Source: Streptomyces lienomycini (GTDB taxonomy: Bacteria > Actinomycetota > Actinomycetes > Streptomycetales > Streptomycetaceae). From it: a stretch of DNA of 64,000 bases. Every line of letters begins with the position of its first letter. Position 1 is the first letter of the stretch. This document shows, in pieces, positions 3,912 to 44,320 of this stretch. The position numbers and the translations under genes were made by a program. Below the pieces are notes generated by a model. That model was not told the origin of the DNA. It did no database searches and saw nothing but the letters and a program-made list of their open reading frames with translations. The stretch covers positions 248,001 through 312,000 of the forward strand of contig NZ_CP116257.1 of NCBI RefSeq assembly GCF_027947595.1, given 5' to 3'.

Positions 3912-4763
3912 ATGGCGCCGAGGATCAATCCCACCGCTCGGCAAGTGCGGCTGGGCGCCGAGTTGCGCAAGTTGCGTGAGGCGACGGGCATGAGGGCGCG
4001 GGAGGTGGCGGCCTTTCTGAACTCGACTTCGGCGCAGATGAGTCAGGTGGAGTTGGGTATCTCGGGTGTCAGCGCGGAGCGCGTTCGTCGACTTGCAGCC
4101 CATTACGGCTGCGGGGACGAGGCGTTCATCGACGCTCTGGCGTCGTTGGCCAGTGAGCGGTCACACGGCTGGTGGGACGACTACCGAGGAGTTCTGCCCC
4201 AGGTGAACCTGGATGTGGCCGAGGCGGAACACCACGCGACCTTCCTGCGGGAGGTCGTGATTACGCACGTTCCCGGTCTTCTCCAAACCTCGGACTACGC
4301 TCGGGCGGTCTTCAGGTATATGCGTCCTGATCTGCCCGAGAGAGAACTGGCGCCGCGCGTGGAGCACAGGATGCGACGGCGAAAGGCGATCGAGGGTGAC
4401 ATGCCGACCCCGTACGAGACGGTGATCCACGAGTTCGCACTGCGTGTTCGTGTGGCCGACCGCCAGACGGCTGTGGCTCAGCTTCGGCTCATCCTGGACG
4501 AGATCGAAAAGGGGCACGCCACAGTTCGGATCGTCCCGGTCGACCGGGACGGCTTCGCGGGTGCTGACGCCTCGATGATGTATCTGGGCGGGCCGGTGCC
4601 CAAGTTGGACACGGGCCTCCTCGACTCACCCACCGGCACCCTGTTCGTCGATGCGGCAGCACACTTGGACCGACTCCGAACACTCTTCCGTACGGTGAAG
4701 AAGTCGTCGCTGAACCCCTCGGAGTCACGGGACTTCGTTCACCGCTTGATGAAGGAGCTTTGA
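3912..4763 (+). CDS. XRE/DUF5753 (WhiJ/Scr1-like) regulator
   Basis: Regulator of about 283 residues: N-terminal HTH (residues 10-65: LGAELRKLREATGMRAREVA ... SQVELGISGVS) followed by the DUF5753 effector domain (HVPGLLQTSDYARAVF, then FRTVKKSSLNPSESRDFVHR near the end). ATG 3912 has GGAGAA about 4 nt upstream; an in-frame start at 3882 has none. The stop overlaps the ATG of the DUF397 gene (TGATG). Members of this family pair with a small DUF397 protein and an ATP-binding protein; some act as antitoxin-like or sporulation regulators (WhiJ, Scr1). Codon use is less GC-biased at third positions than in its neighbours, consistent with transfer. Confidence 0.92.
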   Translation: MAPRINPTARQVRLGAELRKLREATGMRAREVAAFLNSTSAQMSQVELGISGVSAERVRRLAAHYGCGDEAFIDALASLASERSHGWWDDYRGVLPQVNLDVAEAEHHATFLREVVITHVPGLLQTSDYARAVFRYMRPDLPERELAPRVEHRMRRRKAIEGDMPTPYETVIHEFALRVRVADRQTAVAQLRLILDEIEKGHATVRIVPVDRDGFAGADASMMYLGGPVPKLDTGLLDSPTGTLFVDAAAHLDRLRTLFRTVKKSSLNPSESRDFVHRLMKEL

Positions 4764-32740: not shown

Positions 32741-33112
32741 GTGACGGCAGGAGCGGGGGGAACGGACCAGGAGGAACCGTCCCACGAGGTGCTGGGCCGG
32801 GCGGCGGAGGCGTTCGGCCTGCTCGCCGCCCCCGCGCGGCTGCACATCGTCTGGCTCCTCGCCCGGGGGGAGAAGGACGTCAGCGGCCTGGCCGAGCAGG
32901 TCGGCGGCGCGCTGCCGGCCGTCAGCCAGCATCTGTCGAAGCTGAAGCTGGCCGGCCTGGTGCGCTCCCGCCGCGAGGGCCGCCGCCAGGTGTACTACGT
33001 CGACGACCCGGGCGTCGTGGCGGTGGTGCGCCTCATGATCGGGCAGCTCACCGAGCAGGAGCGCGAGCAGGGCGCCCGGCCGCTGCGCCGGCTGCGCGGG
33101 ACCGGTGCCTGA
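32741..33112 (+). CDS. ArsR/SmtB-family regulator
   Basis: 123 residues; winged HTH spans about residues 25-90 (LLAAPARLHIVWLLARGEKD, AVSQHLSKLKLAGLVRSRRE, wing RRQVYYVDDPGVV). No Cys is present, so a metal site would need to use His, Asp or Glu ligands; it could also be a non-metal sensor. GTG start behind GGAGCGGG. Its 3' end overlaps the P-type ATPase start by 8 nt, so it is probably the transporter's own regulator. Confidence 0.92.
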   Translation: MTAGAGGTDQEEPSHEVLGRAAEAFGLLAAPARLHIVWLLARGEKDVSGLAEQVGGALPAVSQHLSKLKLAGLVRSRREGRRQVYYVDDPGVVAVVRLMIGQLTEQEREQGARPLRRLRGTGA

Positions 33113-35675
33113 CCGCCTCCTGGCGGCACCGGCCCGGCCGGCGGGCCCCGGGTCCGCCGACGCTCCGGCGACCGGTGGTCTGACCTCCCTGCAACTGCTC
33201 CGGGCGCTGGACGCGTCACCACGCGGGCTGACCGAGGACGACGCCGCGGTCCGCCTCGGCGCGCACGGTCCCAACCTGCTGCCCGCGCGCCGGGCCGCCT
33301 CCTGGCCGGTGCGCCTGGCGCGCGGCCTGCGCGATCCGTTCACGGCGGTGCTGCTCGCCCTCGGCGTGGTCTCCGCCGCCGTCGCCTCCTGGGGCACGGC
33401 CGGGGTGATCCTGGCCCTGGTCGCGGTCAGCTGCGTACTGCGCTCGCACGGCGAGCACCGGGCCGAGCGGGCCATGGACCACCTGCGGGACCTGGTCGCC
33501 ACCACCGTGAGTGTGCGGCGCCGGGCCGGTCCCGGGGCCGATCCCGTCGTGCGCGAGATACCCGTCGACGAGGTCGTGCCCGGCGACGTCGTCCGGCTCG
33601 GGCCGGGCGACCTGGTCCCGGCCGACGTACGGCTGCTGCGCGCCCACGGGCTGACCGTGGACCAGTCGGCGTTGACCGGCGAGTCGGCCCCGGTGGCCAA
33701 GGAGGCCGGCGAACCGCCCGGCACGGACACCCCGTTCGCGCGCCGGGACATGTGCTTCCAGGGCAGCACGGTCGTCGCGGGCAGCACCACCGCCGTGGTG
33801 GCCGCCACCGGCGCCCGCACCCGGTTCGCCGCCGGGCACGCGCCGGGCGGTCCGCGTCCGCCGAGCGCGTTCGACCGTTCGGTGCACGGCATCTCGTGGG
33901 TGCTGATCCGGTTCGTGCTGCTCACTCCGCCGCTGGTGCTCATGGCGAACGCGGCGCTGCGCGGGCGCGGCCTGGAGACGCTGCCGTTCGCCGTCGCGGT
34001 CGCGGTGGGACTGACGCCGGAGATGCTCCCGGTGGTCGTCACCACCTGCCTGACCCGGGGCGCGGCCACGCTCGCCCGCACCCACGGGGTGATCGTCCGC
34101 CGACCGCCCGCCCTGCACGACCTCGGCGCGACGGACGTGCTGTGCCTGGACAAGACCGGCACGCTCACCCAGGACCGGCCGGTGGCCGCCGAGGCCGTCG
34201 ACGCCGCGGGCCGCGCGGCGCCGGACGTGCTGGCCCGGGCGGCGGTCAACGCCTGGTGGACCCTGCACATCGCCGACCTGCCCGTCCCCGACCCGCTCGA
34301 CGAGGCCCTCCTGGACGCCTGCGACCCGGAGGAGGCGATGGCGTACGACCCGGTGGCCGCGCTGCCCTTCGACACCGTGCGCCGGCTGTCCACGGCCGTC
34401 GTGCGCACTCCCGGCCTGCTCGGTGGCCACACCCTCCTCGTCAAGGGAGCGGCGGAATCCGTGCTCGAGCGGTGCACGATGGACGGGGCCGAGCGGGAGC
34501 GACTGGCCCGGGACGCCGCCCGGCTCGCGGCCCGGGGGGTGCGGGTGCTGGCCGTCGCCACCGGCGAGCGCGCGGCCCGCACCCGCCCCTACACGCCCGC
34601 CGACGAACGCGGCCTGGCCTTCCTCGGCTTCGTCACCTTCCGCGACGCTCTCGCCCCCGGCGCGGCCGACGCCCTCGGCCGCTTCGCCGACCGAGGGGTC
34701 GCCGTCAAGGTCCTCACCGGCGACCACCCCGCCACGGCCGCCCGGGTCTGCCGGGACCTGGGCCTGGAACCGGGTGAGGTGGCCGACGCCGGCGCCGCCG
34801 AGGCGCTCGACGACGAGGAACTGGCCGCGCTGGCCGCCCGCACCACGGTCTTCGCCCGCTGCACGCCCGAGCACAAGGCACGGGTCGTCACCGTGCTGCG
34901 CCGGCGCGGCCACACCGTCGGCTTCCTCGGCGACGGTGTCAACGACCTGCCCGCGCTGCGCGCCGCCGACGTCGGCGTGTGCCCGCTGGGCGGCGTGGAC
35001 GTGGCCCGCCGCAGCGCCGACGTGGTGCTGGCGGACAAGGACCTCACGGCCGTGGACCAGGCGATCGCCGCGGGCCGGCACGCGGGCGGCAACATCGCCT
35101 CGTACCTGCGCATCACGCTCTCCGCCAACCTCGGCAACGTGATGGCGATGCTCGCCGCGGGGCTGCTGCTGCCCTTCCTGCCCATGCTCCCCGCGCAGGT
35201 CCTGGTGCAGAACCTGTGCTTCGACGCGGCGCAGCTCGCCCTCGCCCACGACCGCCCGGCCCGCCGTGAACTGGCCCGTCCGGCCGTGCTGCGCTCCGTG
35301 CCGTTCCTCCGCCTCATCACCGGCTTCGGGCTGCTCGGCGCCCTGGCCGACCTGGCCACCTTCGCCGCTTTGGCGGCCACCGCGTCGGCGGCGCACGACG
35401 AGGGCGCCTTCCACTCCGGCTGGTTCACCGAGAACCTCCTCACCCAGGCCCTCGTCATGCTCCTGATGCGCACCGGGGCCCGGCCCGTGCCCCGGCCGCT
35501 GCTGGTCGCCGCCGCCGCGCTGGCCGCGGTCGGCGTCGCGCTGCCGTTCACGCCGCTGGGCACGCCGCTGGGCCTGGAGCCCTTGCCGGCCGCCTACTAC
35601 GGGCTGCTCGTGGCGATCCTGAGCGGGTACGCGGCGGTCCTGGCGCTCCTGACCCGGCGCGGGCGTCAGCCGTAG
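33105..35675 (+). CDS. P-type ATPase, MgtA-like (P-IIIB)
   Basis: 856 residues. Actuator motif TGESAPVAKE, phosphorylated Asp349 in CLDKTGTLTQD, hinge GDGVNDLPALRAADVG, and the helix-4 segment VGLTPEMLPVVVTTCLTRGA, which is characteristic of magnesium-transporting MgtA/MgtB ATPases. About ten membrane helices. It is slightly shorter than enteric MgtA (about 900) and has a reduced N-terminal region. The transported ion is presumed to be Mg2+; the overlap with an ArsR regulator is unusual for this class. GTG start; its 3' end overlaps the convergent LCP gene by 10 nt. Confidence 0.93.
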   Translation: MPDRLLAAPARPAGPGSADAPATGGLTSLQLLRALDASPRGLTEDDAAVRLGAHGPNLLPARRAASWPVRLARGLRDPFTAVLLALGVVSAAVASWGTAGVILALVAVSCVLRSHGEHRAERAMDHLRDLVATTVSVRRRAGPGADPVVREIPVDEVVPGDVVRLGPGDLVPADVRLLRAHGLTVDQSALTGESAPVAKEAGEPPGTDTPFARRDMCFQGSTVVAGSTTAVVAATGARTRFAAGHAPGGPRPPSAFDRSVHGISWVLIRFVLLTPPLVLMANAALRGRGLETLPFAVAVAVGLTPEMLPVVVTTCLTRGAATLARTHGVIVRRPPALHDLGATDVLCLDKTGTLTQDRPVAAEAVDAAGRAAPDVLARAAVNAWWTLHIADLPVPDPLDEALLDACDPEEAMAYDPVAALPFDTVRRLSTAVVRTPGLLGGHTLLVKGAAESVLERCTMDGAERERLARDAARLAARGVRVLAVATGERAARTRPYTPADERGLAFLGFVTFRDALAPGAADALGRFADRGVAVKVLTGDHPATAARVCRDLGLEPGEVADAGAAEALDDEELAALAARTTVFARCTPEHKARVVTVLRRRGHTVGFLGDGVNDLPALRAADVGVCPLGGVDVARRSADVVLADKDLTAVDQAIAAGRHAGGNIASYLRITLSANLGNVMAMLAAGLLLPFLPMLPAQVLVQNLCFDAAQLALAHDRPARRELARPAVLRSVPFLRLITGFGLLGALADLATFAALAATASAAHDEGAFHSGWFTENLLTQALVMLLMRTGARPVPRPLLVAAAALAAVGVALPFTPLGTPLGLEPLPAAYYGLLVAILSGYAAVLALLTRRGRQP

Positions 35676-37279
35676 GAGAGGTCGGAGCACGGATCGGCGT
35701 CGGCCGTGCGGGCATCGCCGGACGCCTCCCCGGCCCCGGACTCCCCGGCCCCGGACTCCCCGGCCCCGGACTCCCCGGAGGCCGGTGTCCCCACCGCGTC
35801 GCCGGTGTAGTCGCCGCCCATGACCAGGACCAGACCGTCCCCGGCGACGGGTTCCAGACGGGCGCCCGGGAACAGCGGGGCGAGGGCCCCGGCACCGTCC
35901 TTGTGGGCCGGACCGTACTGGATCACGGTGGTGGCGTGGTCCCGGCGGTCGGCGTTGCCCGTCGCGGTGACGGTGAAGCCGTGGTCCCGGAGAGTCCCGG
36001 CGGCGCGGGCGGCCAGCCCGGAGGTGTGGGTGCCGTTGCGGACGGCGACCGCGACGCCCCGGCCGGACACCTCGTGCGTCGTGCCCTCGCCGGAGCCGTG
36101 GTCGCCGCTCCCGCCCCCACCGCCGCCGCTCCCGCTCCCGGAGCCGGTCCCGGTGCCGGTGCCGGTGTCGGAGCCGTCCGGGGCGCGGTCGTTCCTGAGC
36201 GACGCCCACAGGTCGCCTGCGTCCGGCTCGACTACGGCCACGCGGTCGCCCGCGTAACGCCAGGGGATGGTGACGAACCGGGTGTTGTGCAGGTCGACGT
36301 CCTTCAGCGACATGGCGAACTTCAACAGCTTGTCGGCCGAGCCGAGCCCGGGGTCGACCGTCAGGGAACCGGTCGCGGCCTCGGCCAGCGGCAGCAGCCG
36401 GGTCGGGGTGAAACCGTCGTCCTTGATCTTCTTCAGCAGGGCGGACATGAACGCCTGCTGGCGCTTGATGCGGCCGATGTCGGAACCGTCGCCGATGCCG
36501 TGCCGGATCCGGACGTAGTCCAGCGCCCGCTGCCCGGAGACGTTCTGGACGCCCTTGTCGAAGAGCTTGTCGCCCCGCGTCGCGCGGTTCGGGTTGAGGT
36601 CGCGCTGGTAGACGTCCTGGGGCAGGCACACCTCGACACCGCCGACGACGTCAGTGAGCGAGGCGAAGCCCTGGAAGTCGACGACCACGGTGTGGTCCAC
36701 CCGCAGCCCGGAGAGCTTCTCCACGGTGTTCTGGGTGCAGGCCGGATTGCCCTCGGCCCTCTGCCCGACCGAGTAGGCGGCGTTGAACATCGTGTCGGGC
36801 CGTTCCTCGGTCCAGGTCCCGTCGGGCAGCCTGCACGGCGGGATGGTCACGAGGGTGTCGCGGGGGATGGACACGGCGACGGCGTGCCGGCGGTCGGCGT
36901 AGACGTGGAGCAGCAGGGCGGTGTCCGAGCGGCCGATGTCGCCCTTGTCGCCGCCGCCGAGGTCGGCGTTGCCTCCGGTGCGCGCGTCCGAGCCGATGAC
37001 CAGGACGTTCTCGCCCTTCGTCGCCGCGGCGGGGCGGTCGTCGGATATGCCGTCCGCGTCGAAGGTGTCGATGTTGCCGGTCAGCCGCAGGTACAGCCAG
37101 CCCGCCCCGGCCGTCGCGAGCACGACCACCGCCAGGCAGGTCGCGAGGACGGGCCGCAGCCGGCCGCGACCGCGCCGGCGGCCGGGGTGCCGGCCGTTCC
37201 CGCCGCCCGCGCGCCGCCGGGCGCGGTGCGGTTTCCTCCGGCCGTGCCGTGGGGGAGTCGCCTGCTGGTCCGTGGTCAT
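35666..37279 (-). CDS. LytR-CpsA-Psr (LCP) family cell-wall ligase
   Basis: About 537 residues. Short basic cytoplasmic N terminus, one membrane helix (VLATCLAVVVLATAGAGWLY, about residues 45-64), then the LCP catalytic domain (VLVIGSDARTGG, DTALLLHVYADRRHAVAVSI, ALDYVRIRHGIGDGSDIGRI with catalytic Arg residues) and a LytR_C domain (GVAVAVRNGTHTSGLAARAA). A Gly/Ser linker separates them, and GESGA repeats occur near the end. LCP enzymes attach wall glycopolymers to peptidoglycan. ATG 37279 (MTTDQQA) precedes the basic stretch. Confidence 0.93.
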   Translation of the reverse strand: MTTDQQATPPRHGRRKPHRARRRAGGGNGRHPGRRRGRGRLRPVLATCLAVVVLATAGAGWLYLRLTGNIDTFDADGISDDRPAAATKGENVLVIGSDARTGGNADLGGGDKGDIGRSDTALLLHVYADRRHAVAVSIPRDTLVTIPPCRLPDGTWTEERPDTMFNAAYSVGQRAEGNPACTQNTVEKLSGLRVDHTVVVDFQGFASLTDVVGGVEVCLPQDVYQRDLNPNRATRGDKLFDKGVQNVSGQRALDYVRIRHGIGDGSDIGRIKRQQAFMSALLKKIKDDGFTPTRLLPLAEAATGSLTVDPGLGSADKLLKFAMSLKDVDLHNTRFVTIPWRYAGDRVAVVEPDAGDLWASLRNDRAPDGSDTGTGTGTGSGSGSGGGGGGSGDHGSGEGTTHEVSGRGVAVAVRNGTHTSGLAARAAGTLRDHGFTVTATGNADRRDHATTVIQYGPAHKDGAGALAPLFPGARLEPVAGDGLVLVMGGDYTGDAVGTPASGESGAGESGAGESGAGEASGDARTADADPCSDLSYG

Positions 37280-37354: not shown

Positions 37355-37395
37355 GGTCGCGCGGAGCAAGCGGCCGGCCCCAACCAAAGTTGTAT

Positions 37396-37415
37396 AGTTG
37401 CGCAATATAGCAACT
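37396..37415. promoter_or_regulatory. Candidate operator before TatA-like gene
   Basis: Inverted repeat AGTTGC (37396-37401) and GCAACT (37410-37415) with the octamer TTGCGCAA at 37398-37405, inside an AT-rich island, 28 nt before the TatA-like start and 117 nt before the divergent LCP start. The same TTGCGCAA core centres the palindrome at 38185-38209. Confidence 0.65.
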
Positions 37416-37442
37416 GTATGGGGATGGGAAAGGGGTGGCGGA

Positions 37443-37661
37443 ATGCTCCGCAACGGACTGGAGCCGTGGCACCTGCTCGTCGTGGCCGTCGTGTTCATCG
37501 CACTGTTCGGCTCGAAGAAGCTGCCCGACATGGCGCGTTCACTCGGCAAGTCGGCCCGCATCCTCAAGAGCGAGGCCCGGGCGATGCGGTCCGAGGAGGA
37601 GCCGGCCGCCCCCGTCGGCTCCCCGCCGGGGGACGGGTCCGGCCCCGCCGCCGGCCGCTGA
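37443..37661 (+). CDS. TatA/TatE-like protein
   Basis: 72 residues with the Tat pore-subunit design: short N terminus, one membrane helix (WHLLVVAVVFIALFG), the hinge FGSKKLPDMARSLGKSARIL, then an amphipathic helix and a short Pro-rich tail. TatA assembles around TatBC to move folded proteins with twin-arginine signals. No tatC gene lies in the window. It is therefore an extra, dispersed TatA-like subunit or a paralogue with another role. ATG 37443 has GGGGTGG upstream. Confidence 0.88.
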   Translation: MLRNGLEPWHLLVVAVVFIALFGSKKLPDMARSLGKSARILKSEARAMRSEEEPAAPVGSPPGDGSGPAAGR

Positions 37662-37690
37662 GTCGCGGGCCCGGCGGCCGGCGCGGCCCG

Positions 37691-38125
37691 TCAGGTGGCC
37701 TCCGGGTCGAACGGGACGCGGGGCGCGTCGGCCTCCGGGCCCGGTCGCGACCCGGCCGGGGCCGACGAGCCGCCGGGGCCGGGTCCGGGGTCGGGCCCGG
37801 GCCCGGGGTCGGACGCGGAACGGGGGGCGGGGCCTGGCTCGGGGTCGGCTCCGGAGTCCGGCTCGGCTCCGAGCCCCAGCGCGTCGCCGTCCAGGACGTG
37901 CTTGCGTACGAACGTCTCCGGCCGCAGGTCGCGGAGCTCGAAGTCCTGGAACTCCGGGCCGAGTCCGGAGCGGATCTCCTCCTCGGCGCTGTCGGTGACC
38001 TCCCGCACCTTGCGCAGGAAGCCCGCCACGTTCTGGATGACCTCCGGGAGCCGGTCCGGCCCGAAGAGGAGGACGGCCAGGACCGCCAGCGCGGCCAGTT
38101 CCATGGGGCCCACGTCGGAGAACAC
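37691..38125 (-). CDS. TatB-like protein
   Basis: 144 residues. N terminus MFSDVGPMELAALAVLAVLL then FGPDRLPEVIQNVAGFLRKV: the Glu in the membrane segment and the GPDRLPE hinge are typical of TatB. A long amphipathic helix follows (REVTDSAEEEIRSGLGPEFQ), then an extended Pro/Gly/Asp-rich tail from about residue 85. Convergent with the TatA-like gene, 29 nt away. Each has its own TTGCGCAA-type site, suggesting common control. Confidence 0.88.
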   Translation of the reverse strand: MFSDVGPMELAALAVLAVLLFGPDRLPEVIQNVAGFLRKVREVTDSAEEEIRSGLGPEFQDFELRDLRPETFVRKHVLDGDALGLGAEPDSGADPEPGPAPRSASDPGPGPDPGPGPGGSSAPAGSRPGPEADAPRVPFDPEAT

Positions 38126-38184
38126 CGGCCGCTCCTCGCGCAGACGTCGTCGGTCGGCTCACCCGTGACGGGAGCCGACCAACA

Positions 38185-38209
38185 GTTTAATACTTGCGCA
38201 AGTGTTAAC
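38185..38209. promoter_or_regulatory. Candidate operator before TatB-like gene
   Basis: Near-perfect 25-bp palindrome: arms GTTTAATACTTG and CAAGTGTTAAC flank the centre, whose core ACTTGCGCAAGT is perfectly symmetric. 60 nt upstream of the TatB-like start. It shares TTGCGCAA with 37398-37405. ArsR- and MarR-type regulators often use sites of this shape. Confidence 0.7.
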
Positions 38210-40150
38210 TACATGCCGGTCCGGCCCTCCGTTCGCGCCCGCCGCCCGAGCAGCTCCGCCAGCCCCCGCCGGGTCGCCGCCAGCACCACCCGGTCCGCAC
38301 CCCGCAGGACGTACGTGTCGGGCAGCTCCCACACCAGCCGGGACGCCCGCGCCGCCCCCTGCGCACCGGCCTCCCCGCGTCCGTCGGGGACCTCCAGCGC
38401 CAGCACCCGCCACGCCCCCGCCCGGAACGCCTCCCCGACCGTCCTCCCCTCCAGCTGCGGATGCCCCGCCACCCGCACCGCCGCGAACAGCAGCACCCGC
38501 CGCTCCACGGGGATCGCGCCCAGGATCTGCCGGCCCATCATCGCGCCGGCGAACGAGGGCGCGGCCAGGTGCGTCACACTGCGGCTGCGGGTGAGGGCGC
38601 CGGGGTGGGCGGCGCGCAGGGTGCGGTACACGGCGGTCGCGAAGTCGTCGTCGTACAGGCGCAGCACCACCCGCAGCCGCGACCGCACGGACCGGGCGTA
38701 CAGCACCGCCTCCAGGTTGGTCGTGTCCACGCTGGTCAGGGCGAGCAGCGAGTGCGCGGTGGATCTTGGCGGACTCCAGGACGCCCTCCTGGGTGACGTC
38801 CCCGAGCACCACCGGCACCCGCAGCCGCCGTGCGGTGGCCATGCCGCGCGCCTCGGGGTCGGCCTCGACGCACACCACGGGGATGTCCATCTCCCGCAGC
38901 CGGGTCAGTACACGCGTGCCGATCTTGCCGAGGCCGAGCAGGACGACGTGCCCGCCGAGCCCCCGCGGCGGTTTCCGCAGCGTCGACGCGGTGCGGAACG
39001 TGCCGAGGGCCTCCAGCACGGCCGCCAGCAGCACCGGCAGCAGCAGCAGTCCGACGAAACCGGACAGGAGCTGGAGGATCTGGCGGCCGACGTCGTCGTT
39101 GTGCGCGGGTTCGTTGATGGAGAACAGGTCGAGCAGTGTGACGTACGTGGCGTGCAGCGGATGGTCGCCGGTGACCACCATCAGCGCGACGGCGAGTGCG
39201 ACCACGCACGCCGCCAGACCGGCCAGCGACCATCGCAGGCGCCGTGAGAACAGTTCCCCGAAGGCGGGCACACCGGCCCGTCCGGCGGCCAGCGGCGGCC
39301 CGGAGTACGACACCTGCTCCAGGGCGACGGTTCCGCGCCCGGTGGCCGCCTCCACCGCCGCCGCGTCGGGCAGCAGTTGCGGACCCTGCTCACCGCTGTC
39401 CTCCGAACCGTCCGCACCGGCCGGGTCGTTGCTCGTCGTGGACAGCAGCGCGAGGGTGCACAGCCCGGGGTCGGCCACCTCGCCGGGGCGGGGCGGATCG
39501 CGCTCGACCGCGCGCAGCAGCAGACCGTCGGCCTCGACGATCTTGCTGGTGCCGACGAGCGCGGTGGCCGCCAGCGCGGGCGCGGCGGTGTCCGCGTCGG
39601 ACAGGACCGTCGTCGACCCCTCGACGCCGCCGGTCCCGGGACTCGCCAACACGGCGCTCTGGTCGAGCAGTTCCTCGATGTGCTGGCCCAGGCGCCGGTT
39701 GTACAGGCGCAGGACCAGCCGCAGGCGCGGGTTGAGCCGGCGTGCGGTCAGGGCGGCGCGGATGTTGGTCTCGTCGTCGTCGTAGACGAGGGCCAGCGCG
39801 GTGGCCTGCTCGACGCCGGCGTCCGCGAGCACGTCCTCGGTGGGCTCGGTGGCCTCCAACGCGCGGTCCGGGGCGCCCGGTTCGCCGCCGCCGGTCCGGT
39901 TGACGGCCGCGTTGACCATGTCCAGCAGCGCCGCCGAGGCCGCCCGGGCCCGCCCGACGACCGGCTGAGGCACCCGGCGTCCGGAGGGCGGGACGACGAG
40001 TGTGACCTGCTCGCGGTAGACACCGCGCAGTTCGGCGGCCAGCCGGTGCGCCAGCCCGTCGTCGCCGCACACCACCATGTGCGCGTACGCGTCGCGCTGC
40101 GGCCCCTGATTCGGCCCCTGACGCGGAACGCTCCCCGTGTGAGTCCCCAT
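38209..40150 (-). pseudogene. Double TrkA-N/RCK membrane protein, frameshifted
   Basis: Reading from ATG 40150 gives a TrkA-N domain (MVVCGDDGLAHRLAAELRGV), two membrane helices near residues 306 and 361 flanking YVTLLDLFSINEPAH, then a second RCK domain (GGHVVLLGLGKIGTRVLTRL). The frame breaks at about 38752-38758: after LESAKIHR it is lost, while the expected continuation SLLALTSVDTTNLEAVLYAR sits in another frame and runs to the stop at 38209. Restored length is about 645 residues. The pore loop lacks the TVGYG potassium filter. It could be an inactivated gene, a sequencing error or programmed shifting. Confidence 0.75.
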
Positions 40151-40206
40151 GTGAGGAGGACAGTACAGGCGCGGTGCCCGGTTCCGGGGAGTGCCCGAGG
40201 GTGCGC

Positions 40207-41298
40207 CTATATCTCCTGGGCGGGCCATCCCAGCAGCCGCGCCCCGATGGCCGCGGTCTGCAGCGTGTAGCGGTGCACCGGCTCGGACGGGTCGGCCCCG
40301 GTCAGCTGATGGATGCGGTCCAGCCGGTAGGTGAGCGCCCGCACGCTCAGCGCGAGACGCCGGGCGGCCTCGGCCGCGGTGCAGCCGGCGTCGAAGTACA
40401 CCTCCAGGGTCCTCAGCAGCGGCTCGGCACCGCCGCGAGCCTCGCGCAGCGGCCCCAGCACGCTCAGTACGAGGTCGGCCATCGCCTGCCGGTCCCGGGC
40501 CAGGACCGGGTAGACCAGCATGTCGGCGGCGCGCACCACGGGCTCGTCCAGGCTCAGCCGGTCGGCCAGTTCGAGGGTGCTGACGGCCTCCTCGTAGCTG
40601 TGCACCACACCGCCCGCGCCGCTCTGCGGGCGCCCGATGGCGACCCGGCTGCCGTCCGTGGCGGCGTACGCCTGCTTGGCGAAGTAGGAGAGGACGTCGT
40701 CCTGGTCGCCGGGCGCGATACAGATCAACTGCCCGTTCTTGGTGGTGATCAGGATGCGCCGGTCGCCGAAGCGGGAGATCAGCGCGGTCTCCACGATCCG
40801 GGTGACCGGTGCGGTGTCGTCGTACGCCTCGGGTCCCTCGGCCACCGCGACGGCGTGGGCGCGGGAGAGGACGAGGCCGAAGCGCTCGGCCCGTTCGGCG
40901 AGCCGGCCCAGGTCGCTGCGCCCGTAGAGCAGGTCGTCGATGAACTCCCGCCGCGCCGCCTCCTCCTGGCGTACGGCCAGCCGCTGGGCGCGTTCGTAGC
41001 CCTCGGCGAAGGCGTCCACCGCCTGGGCGACGGCGGCGAGCACGGGGGCGGTGCCGTCGGGACCGGAGGCCGTCGTGCCACCGGGCCAGGACGTGCGCGT
41101 GGCGTCCAGGTGCAGCCGTACGAGACTGCGCAGGCTGTGCCCCGCCTCCGCGGCCTGCTCACCGTGGAGCCGCCGCTCCTCCAGCTCGTCGCGGGTCAGC
41201 CGTCGCCCCGTGTCGGCGACCGTCGCCAAAATCTCGGCGTACCCGGCCAGATACGTCTCCTGTTGCGTCTCCCGCTGGTCCGTCCGCAGGTCCGTCAC
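40207..41298 (-). CDS. PucR/CdaR-family regulator
   Basis: 363 residues. A central GGDEF-like sensor region (FGLVLSRAHAVAVAEGPEAY ... ILITTKNGQLICIAPGD) and a C-terminal PucR-type HTH (LLRTLEVYFDAGCTAAEAAR, RALTYRLDRIHQLTGADP). GTG 41298 (VTDLRTDQ) follows GGGGGAGG at a good distance; a longer frame to 41379 has none. Such regulators respond to purine, sugar-acid or nitrogen catabolites; the target is unclear. It lies just upstream of the broken RCK gene on the same strand. Confidence 0.9.
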   Translation of the reverse strand: MTDLRTDQRETQQETYLAGYAEILATVADTGRRLTRDELEERRLHGEQAAEAGHSLRSLVRLHLDATRTSWPGGTTASGPDGTAPVLAAVAQAVDAFAEGYERAQRLAVRQEEAARREFIDDLLYGRSDLGRLAERAERFGLVLSRAHAVAVAEGPEAYDDTAPVTRIVETALISRFGDRRILITTKNGQLICIAPGDQDDVLSYFAKQAYAATDGSRVAIGRPQSGAGGVVHSYEEAVSTLELADRLSLDEPVVRAADMLVYPVLARDRQAMADLVLSVLGPLREARGGAEPLLRTLEVYFDAGCTAAEAARRLALSVRALTYRLDRIHQLTGADPSEPVHRYTLQTAAIGARLLGWPAQEI

Positions 41299-42745: not shown

Positions 42746-44320
42746 ATGACCCTGTCCGAGCTGTACCTGATGCTGCTGATCGGCGGCACCGTGCTGCTGG
42801 CCAGCATCGCCGCCGCCCGCGCCGCCCACCGCATCGGCCTGCCCAGCCTGCTGCTGTTCCTGTGCGTCGGACTCGTCGCGGGCGAGGACGGCCTCGGCCT
42901 GCGCTTCGACGACGCCCAGTTGGCACAGGCGCTGGGCGCCGCCGCCCTGGCGCTGATCCTCGTCGAGGGCGGCCTGACCACCCAGTGGAGCGACGTGCGG
43001 CGCCTGCTGGCCCCCGCGGGCGTGCTGGCCACCGCCGGCGTGGCCGTCTCCGTCGCGGTGACCGCGGCGGGCGCGCACTGGCTGCTGGGCATCGACTGGC
43101 GCCTCGCCCTGCTGATCGGCGCGATCGTCTCCTCCACCGACGCCGCCGCCGTCTTCGCCGTACTGCGCGCCCTGCCGCTGCCGCGGAAGGTGAGCGTGCT
43201 GGTGGAGGCCGAGTCCGGCTTCAACGACGCGCCGACCATCATCCTGGTCCTGCTCTTCTCCACCACCGCCGACCTGCCCGGTCCGGTGCCCGTCGTGGGC
43301 AACCTGCTCTTCCAGCTCGTGGTCGGCGGCGCCCTGGGTGTGGTGATCGGGCGGCTGGGCGTCGCGGCCCTGCGGCACATCGCCCTGCCCGCCACCGGCC
43401 TGTACCCGCTGGCCACGGTCGGCTTCGGCGTCGTCGCCTTCGCCGCCGCAGGGGCGCTGGGCGCCAGCGGCATCATCGCCGCCTACCTCTCGGGCCTGGT
43501 CCTCGGCAACGCCAAACTGCCGCACCGGGCGGCCACCCGCTCCTTCGCCGAGGGCGTCGGCTGGCTGGCGCAGATCGGCCTGTTCGTCATGCTCGGCCTG
43601 CTCGTCGATCCGACCGAACTGCCCGCCGCGATCCTCCCCGCCCTGGTCGTCGGCCTGGTCCTGCTGCTGGTCGCCCGCCCCGTGTCGGTCCTGCTCTGCC
43701 TGCTGCCCTTCCGGGTGCCCTGGCGCGAGCAGGTGTTCATCTCCTGGGCCGGTCTGCGCGGCGCGGTGCCCATCGTGCTGACCACGTTCCCGGTGGTGGC
43801 CGGGGTGACCGGGGCGCGCGACGCCCTGAACATCGTCTTCGTGCTCGTCGTCCTGTTCACCCTCCTCCAGGGGCCGACGCTGCCCGCCGTCGCCCGGTGG
43901 ACGGGCGTGACCCGTACGGACGCGCTGCGCGAGATCCAGGTGGAGTCGGCGCCGCTCGACCTCCTGGACGCCGACCTGCTCAGCGTGTCCGTCCCGCCGG
44001 GTTCCCGGCTGCACGGCGTCACCGTCGTCGAACTGCGGCTGCCGCACCCGACGGTGCTGACCCTGGTCATCCGCGACGGCGCCAGCCTCGTGCCCGACGG
44101 CGAGACGGTGCTGCGCTCGGGTGACGAACTGCTGCTCGTCACCACGCCCGGGGTCAGGGAGGCGGCCGAACGGCGCCTGCGTGCCATCGGCCGACGCGGC
44201 AAACTGGCCCGCTGGCTGGGTGAACACGGGTCTCCGGAGTCAGAGCCCTCGGAGTCGGCACCCTCGGAGTCGGAACACTTGCTCCCCGTACGGCGCGAAA
44301 AGCAACACAATGCGCAATAA
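42746..44320 (+). CDS. CPA1 cation/proton antiporter with RCK_C domain (NhaP2/CvrA type)
   Basis: 524 residues. About twelve membrane helices; family motifs SSTDAAAVFAVLRALPLPRK, EAESGFNDAPTIILVLLF (the two essential acidic residues) and SWAGLRGAVPIVLTTFPVVA. After about residue 395 a cytoplasmic RCK_C/TrkA_C regulatory domain follows (VPPGSRLHGVTVVELRLPHP ... RSGDELLLVTTPGVREAAER) and a Ser/Glu-rich tail. It exchanges K+ or Na+ for H+ and may be gated by a ligand bound to the C-terminal domain. A hairpin follows the stop. Confidence 0.94.
   Translation: MTLSELYLMLLIGGTVLLASIAAARAAHRIGLPSLLLFLCVGLVAGEDGLGLRFDDAQLAQALGAAALALILVEGGLTTQWSDVRRLLAPAGVLATAGVAVSVAVTAAGAHWLLGIDWRLALLIGAIVSSTDAAAVFAVLRALPLPRKVSVLVEAESGFNDAPTIILVLLFSTTADLPGPVPVVGNLLFQLVVGGALGVVIGRLGVAALRHIALPATGLYPLATVGFGVVAFAAAGALGASGIIAAYLSGLVLGNAKLPHRAATRSFAEGVGWLAQIGLFVMLGLLVDPTELPAAILPALVVGLVLLLVARPVSVLLCLLPFRVPWREQVFISWAGLRGAVPIVLTTFPVVAGVTGARDALNIVFVLVVLFTLLQGPTLPAVARWTGVTRTDALREIQVESAPLDLLDADLLSVSVPPGSRLHGVTVVELRLPHPTVLTLVIRDGASLVPDGETVLRSGDELLLVTTPGVREAAERRLRAIGRRGKLARWLGEHGSPESEPSESAPSESEHLLPVRREKQHNAQ

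Follow-up and report, generated by a model that had tools for sequence, protein, structure and literature searches.

The window analysed here is a stretch of 64,000 nt of Streptomyces lienomycini (contig NZ_CP116257.1), to which coordinates refer unless those of the genome are indicated. In it, a TatA-like and a TatB-like gene converge, and each is preceded by an imperfect palindrome centred on the octamer TTGCGCAA (Table 1). This arrangement raises the question of whether the two genes are controlled by one regulator, and which protein and which further genes would be involved. Loci fetched for comparison are designated by L-numbers, and the Streptomyces genomes of a sample of 246 by G-numbers.

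Table 1. Features of the window that bear on the predicted operators
Feature	Coordinates	Strand	Description
arsR (candidate reader)	32741..33112	+	ArsR-family regulator; HTH_5 and NF033788 above cut-off; co-occurrence with site
mgtA-like gene	33105..35675	+	Mg2+-type P-type ATPase; TIGR01524 682.7 bits, cut-off 610.75
LCP gene	35666..37279	-	LytR-CpsA-Psr family; above cut-off for PF03816 and PF13399; diverges from tatA, with operator 1 between the two
Operator 1 (predicted)	37386..37417	.	imperfect palindrome of 32 bp; core TTGCGCAA (37398-37405); separates tatA from the divergent LCP gene
tatA-like gene	37443..37661	+	72 aa; PF02416 and NF001854 above cut-off
tatB-like gene	37691..38125	-	144 aa; PF02416 and NF002377 above cut-off
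Operator 2 (predicted)	38182..38213	.	imperfect palindrome of 32 bp; core TTGCGCAA (38194-38201); precedes tatB
Probable -10 element of tatB	38184..38189	-	TAAACT; 4 bp past operator core

The tat-like genes and their upstream palindromes

The convergence of the two genes, as described in the first-pass annotation, is confirmed by their coordinates, strands and PF02416 matches (49.3 bits for the TatA-like and 26 bits for the TatB-like protein; cut-off 21). The TatA-like protein also exceeds the cut-offs of NF001854 (88 against 72) and TIGR01411 (56 against 53.9) and has the transmembrane helix, FG hinge and amphipathic helix of the TatA profile. The TatB-like protein exceeds the cut-off of NF002377 (102.2 against 96) and falls below those of NF002374 (118.7 against 162) and TIGR01410 (37.9 against 56.5). 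No TatC gene adjoins tatA or tatB in this region of the window, and the two do not form a self-contained Tat system. The whole genome has five TatA/B-family matches and a single TatC, at 5462310-5462990 (5.46 Mb) beside another TatA, which bears out the earlier statement that the tat genes have no TatC of their own. A TatA/B-family match was also noticed close to the end of the chromosome, at genome position 131236-131373 (L034), within an open frame of 247 aa.

The window TatA carries a His (EPWH) in place of the membrane Glu of this genome's housekeeping TatA. The His follows PW in 64/64 distinct TatA segments collected by a search that itself demanded PW, and tatA paralogues lacking the site also carry EPWH. 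According to excerpts of PMC5201420, His or Gln at residue 8 is frequent in TatA proteins; the residue is a known common alternative and was dropped as a novelty. The His variants in these excerpts have it at the same position, while here it is tied to the operator-bearing copy. Excerpts of PMC5001237 describe extra tatA copies in several Streptomyces clades (tatA1-3) and a second tatB (tatB2) in one of eleven species, and these passages are silent on a common operator, regulator or island for the paralogues.

The start of tatA lies 37 bp downstream of its core and that of tatB 68 bp downstream of its own; the tatA site is also 118 bp upstream of the LCP-family gene on its other side, with 37279 as the assumed start of that gene. 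The common core is present before both genes, as proposed earlier. Outside it the palindromes are imperfect, with 8/13 pairs matched over 37389-37414 and 10/13 over 38185-38210. The earlier statement that the window has no further site except a partial one at 44310 is to be corrected in two points. A third octamer occurs at 3963-3970, within an HTH-like reading frame, and the partial match at 44310 coincides with the 3' end of the Na+/H+ antiporter gene. Both lack arms and were for that reason discarded as operators.

The octamer alone is modestly unusual and not rare by itself. Its count in the window is 3 against 0.28 expected (at least 3 in 1/100 shuffles), and in the whole genome there are 32 copies against 71 of the reversed control. 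By a crude test, 20/32 of these overlap a GC3-rich open frame; the tatA site is counted among the 20, as a spurious TTG frame begins there. The extended form TTGCGCAA-N6-AA(C/G)TG, on the other hand, has exactly 2 copies in 7,863,969 bases, one ahead of each of the two tat genes, with none in the reversed control. The palindrome had been called rare, which is true of the extended form and not of the octamer; the genome-wide search for palindromes with flanks, proposed at the same time, places the extended form at these two tat genes alone. TTGCGCAA-N4-TAAAST has a single copy in this genome, before tatB. When 2 mismatches are allowed, the genome has 39 matches and the reversed control 85, so that the site is not in excess.

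Two other occurrences of the octamer in this genome may be mentioned. At genome position 5807731 (L021:2001) it is surrounded by a long perfect palindrome, ACGTAAACGCTTGCGCAAGCGTTTACGT, with arms unrelated to those of the tat sites; this looks like a different operator, which we take to be LacI-operator-like. At 5914434 and 5914448 (L022:2001 and 2015) two octamers lie 14 bp apart in AT-rich DNA, perhaps an Lrp/AsnC-type site.

Conservation of the site and the genes behind it

In the plasmid relatives NBC_01237, BHT-5-2 and NBC_01324, GTTRTACAGTTGCGCAA-type sites precede tatA-like genes, and the gene order in NBC_01324 is arsR, mgtA, GNAT gene, LCP, tatA, terD. Sites of the operator-1 type are found upstream of tatA-like genes in L045, L046 and L047. 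The search patterns were derived from sites already seen, and the following counts are thus descriptive rather than blind tests. The strict tatA form RTAYAGTTGCGCAAN4GCAA occurs in 72/246 genomes of the genus (80 sites; 0 in the reversed control), upstream of a tatA-like gene in 29/30 loci read. The general form TTGCGCAAN6AASTG occurs in 59/246 genomes (112 sites against 13 in the reversed control), and TTGCGCAAN4TAAAST in 34/246 (39 sites against 0). Among 147 genomes sampled across the order, 33 match the strict pattern, every one of them of the window's genus, and the pattern is absent from all 15 genomes of other genera in that sample. In the pooled loci 109/144 TTGCGCAA sites pass an arm filter; beyond the positions that it covers, A at -12 and T at +19 show a symmetric enrichment as well, and the consensus is ACASTT-N6-TTGCGCAA-N6-AASTGT. 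The site is conserved upstream of relatives of both tat genes in other Streptomyces, a point that the first-pass annotation had made a test of its proposal.

The targets were surveyed in 40 islands of 10-19 kb and four other loci. The typical island has the order arsR, mgtA, often LCP, site, tatA, sometimes the 76-aa gene, site, terD, and rarely tatB. Sites are found upstream of LCP genes in L086 and L173 and of a Transgly_assoc/GlsB-like gene in L092, and further site-preceded genes are terD, an unnamed 76-aa gene, bacA/uppP and FtsW/RodA, some of them far from tat genes. Twenty additional loci were picked from matches to the general form away from tatA. In these the target is the 76-aa gene in 7, FtsW/RodA in 2, terD in 2 (one with tatB on the opposite side), LCP directly in 1 and bacA directly in 1; in another, bacA is the second gene downstream of a site that also faces a Castor/Pollux-type channel. 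L172 and L180 have only a weak LCP match, farther from the site, and no convincing target is seen in L169, L171, L177, L185 and L186, the last with its site within a long reading frame. PPK2 was rejected as a target because in L169 the gene lies on the far side and is oriented toward the site.

The 76-aa family has no match in Pfam or NCBIfam, and an exact core lies within 200 bp of the gene in 19/23 loci (duplicate start choices merged). Members of 76-79 aa (L082:8388-8627, L054:1873-2103 and others) have the start codon a few bases past the operator. A 272-aa family without a Pfam match also recurs near sites (L050:1583-2401, L080, L082 and L148), directly behind one in L050.

TatA and TatB differ in their share in this set. 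By tblastn, a TatB-type gene is present in 2/40 islands (L109 and L115), and the site precedes 6/34 distinct TatB-type genes across the fetched loci, i.e. those of the window, L037, L078, L109, L115 and L209. Most of the 28 site-less TatB-type genes are of the housekeeping type; L039 and L044 provide examples of others. In 11/20 loci from ArsR-bearing genomes, chosen for absence of the strict pattern, there are tatA paralogues without the site. TatA is thus a common and TatB an occasional member of the regulon, and the co-occurrence check suggested at the outset finds the two seldom together under the site. As sites also precede many unrelated genes, they are not the mark of a Tat pair, and the idea of a dedicated one is not supported. 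Instead, the site very likely marks a previously undescribed envelope or stress regulon of Streptomyces, as judged from the sequences compared. A literature search, with most subscription journals and supplements outside its range, gave no Streptomyces operator with TTGCGCAA among the matches listed, and nothing relevant for GTTGCGCAA with Streptomyces or TTGCGCAA with ArsR among the matches listed.

The candidate reader

Because the extended site is unique in this genome to the two tat genes and is conserved before their relatives, one regulator acting on both, as first suggested, is likely. The nearby ArsR protein had been named as a candidate. It has the winged-helix domain of the family (PF01022 45.7 bits, cut-off 22; NF033788 80, cut-off 55), and the nearest solved sequences are ArsR-family proteins (the 13ct/6o8l set, then SmtB). 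Its gene is overlapped by 8 bp by the mgtA-like gene, the usual neighbour of arsR in the relatives. The canonical metal ligands (alpha-3 Cys; alpha-5 Asp/His/His/Glu) are incomplete: the protein has no Cys, and, aligned with SmtB at what we take to be its alpha-5 ligand positions, it keeps the Asp and Glu and has both His replaced.

Close relatives of this ArsR (E<=1e-25, with the NBC_01324 copy as query) are found in 92/246 genomes. The strict tatA site is present in 71/92 of these against 1/154 of the others, so that 71/72 site genomes carry ArsR, though ArsR, tatA and the site move as one island in related genomes and such co-occurrence counts overstate independence. With the same reservation, the general site is accompanied by a close ArsR in 54/59 genomes, the N4-TAAAST form occurs in 32/92 ArsR-bearing genomes against 2/154 others (32/34 with ArsR), and either the strict or the general pattern in 79/92 against 6/154. 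If the comparison is confined to genomes that bear the tatA signature, the strict site is present in 68/81 with ArsR against 1/14 without. ArsR lies within 32/40 fetched islands, and the other 8 genomes encode it elsewhere. It is also the most frequent regulator cluster near the sites (29/45 loci), the next among those recognised being TetR-like (7) and BlaI-like (3).

Two other local proteins put forward as possible regulators, PucR (40207) and a YozG-like HTH protein (41903), are both absent from the 44 related loci (4-19 kb) at E 1e-6, and were dropped as readers on the strength of this local absence. The TrkA-domain channel and NhaP antiporter of the window are likewise absent from the 44 loci at this threshold. 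The channel gene seems to be split into a 689-aa frame (38159-40228, minus strand) and a 173-aa C-terminal-like frame (38209-38730, minus strand); the frames differ near 38730-38770, by a real or an assembly frameshift.

The association with ArsR has exceptions. G168 (tatA site) and G005 (76-aa gene with site) have no close ArsR, and G080 has a site and an ArsR that is only partial and 62% identical; the sites in these three look genuine. They belong to the six genomes that carry the strict or the general pattern outside the set with a close ArsR; of the others, G128 and G232 seem to have fortuitous matches, and the sixth is G043. Conversely, 13 ArsR-bearing genomes have neither the strict nor the general pattern. 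Six of them (G003, G018, G059, G095, G117 and G137) show TTGCGCAA near island genes, the ArsR of three (G025, G120 and G147) is no more than a remote one, at 47-56% identity, and in G016, G028, G194 and G197 no exact core is present in the loci read.

These exceptions bear on a second reading of the same regulon, in which the reader is encoded outside the island (e.g. an envelope-stress response regulator) and ArsR controls mgtA only. Besides G005, G168 and G080 with its remote ArsR, it would account for some targets being distant from arsR and for the lack of an operator within 130 bp upstream of the window arsR. Sites do occur near arsR starts in L092, L105, L110 and L107 (start uncertain), of which those in L092 may serve a divergent gene. 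The width of the palindrome points the same way: the layout known for operators of ArsR dimers is 12-2-12, and the palindrome here is wider. Against an outside reader stand the distribution of the strict tatA site over genomes with and without ArsR and the fact that no other regulator cluster near the sites is comparably frequent. We therefore regard an outside reader as possible but rather unlikely. The ArsR at 32741, the best candidate by co-occurrence, probably reads both predicted operators.

Promoter geometry and a possible mechanism

Before tatB the core is followed at 4 bp by a probable -10 element, and the same spacing to TAAAST is found in 4/6 tatB-type genes with a site and in 16/19 of the 76-aa loci with an exact core. 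In the 76-aa genes the start codon lies 8-31 bp from the core, which suggests leaderless transcripts. The core-to-start distance of the tatA-like genes is 28 to 122 bp, and no clear -10 element overlaps the site before tatA. As the core abuts the -10-like TAAAST before the tatB and 76-aa genes, where a bound protein would occlude the promoter, repression, rather than the switching on first proposed, is the likely direction of control of these genes; with their variable distances the tatA-like genes may be controlled in either direction.

The fixed spacing might also be expected if the site were not an operator but part of a promoter recognised by an alternative sigma factor, which is nevertheless very improbable, because the palindromic core is flanked by an arm on either side, the distance to tatA-like starts varies, and a -35/-10 spacer would need more than 4 bp. 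Resemblance of the two sites by chance or by common descent of tat promoters, without joint control, might be entertained on account of the 32 octamers in the genome, but hardly deserves credence when the extended form here is unique to the two tat genes and the site is conserved elsewhere before many unrelated genes.

Returning to ArsR as the reader, we consider it moderately likely that the sites are operators of one envelope/stress regulon that is repressed by ArsR and released by an envelope-stress signal. Dimers of ArsR would bind the palindrome of about 32 bp and repress the target genes. Since the protein lacks Cys and both alpha-5 His, the signal is probably sensed outside the canonical ArsR metal sites; it would free the operators, and the additional Tat subunits would then be made together with a wall-polymer ligase and with accessory proteins of the envelope. 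The extra TatA and TatB may work with the single housekeeping TatC, or alone at the membrane. A more specific version is doubtful and is offered tentatively: the ArsR without metal-sensing residues might be an envelope-stress switch, and the surplus TatA and TatB might guard or remodel a damaged membrane rather than mainly serve export, together with the wall-polymer ligase, undecaprenyl-phosphate recycling and TerD.

The ArsR/SmtB repressors include SmtB and CzrA, as well as the metal-independent members NolR, SdpR and HlyU. The window protein resembles these repressors in its winged-helix domain, its small size and the P-type ATPase gene adjoining its own. It differs in that the set of canonical ligands is incomplete and that its proposed targets are scattered envelope genes, not just the adjacent transporter. 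With respect to stress, excerpts of PMC7317143 report that a LytR-family gene (MAGL008579) and terD (MAGL008582) are both up-regulated in Streptomyces albulus under acid stress. The two tags are three apart. The genes are of the same kinds as the LCP and terD of the island, and that this acid-induced pair belongs to the same island would be a guess.

If this reading is correct, the extra Tat subunits of Streptomyces, often without a known role, would gain a regulatory context, and another ArsR-family regulator without canonical metal sites would acquire a defined target set. Roughly one in three of the Streptomyces genomes sampled would then contain an envelope regulon that has escaped study, and its compact operator would be open to direct testing.
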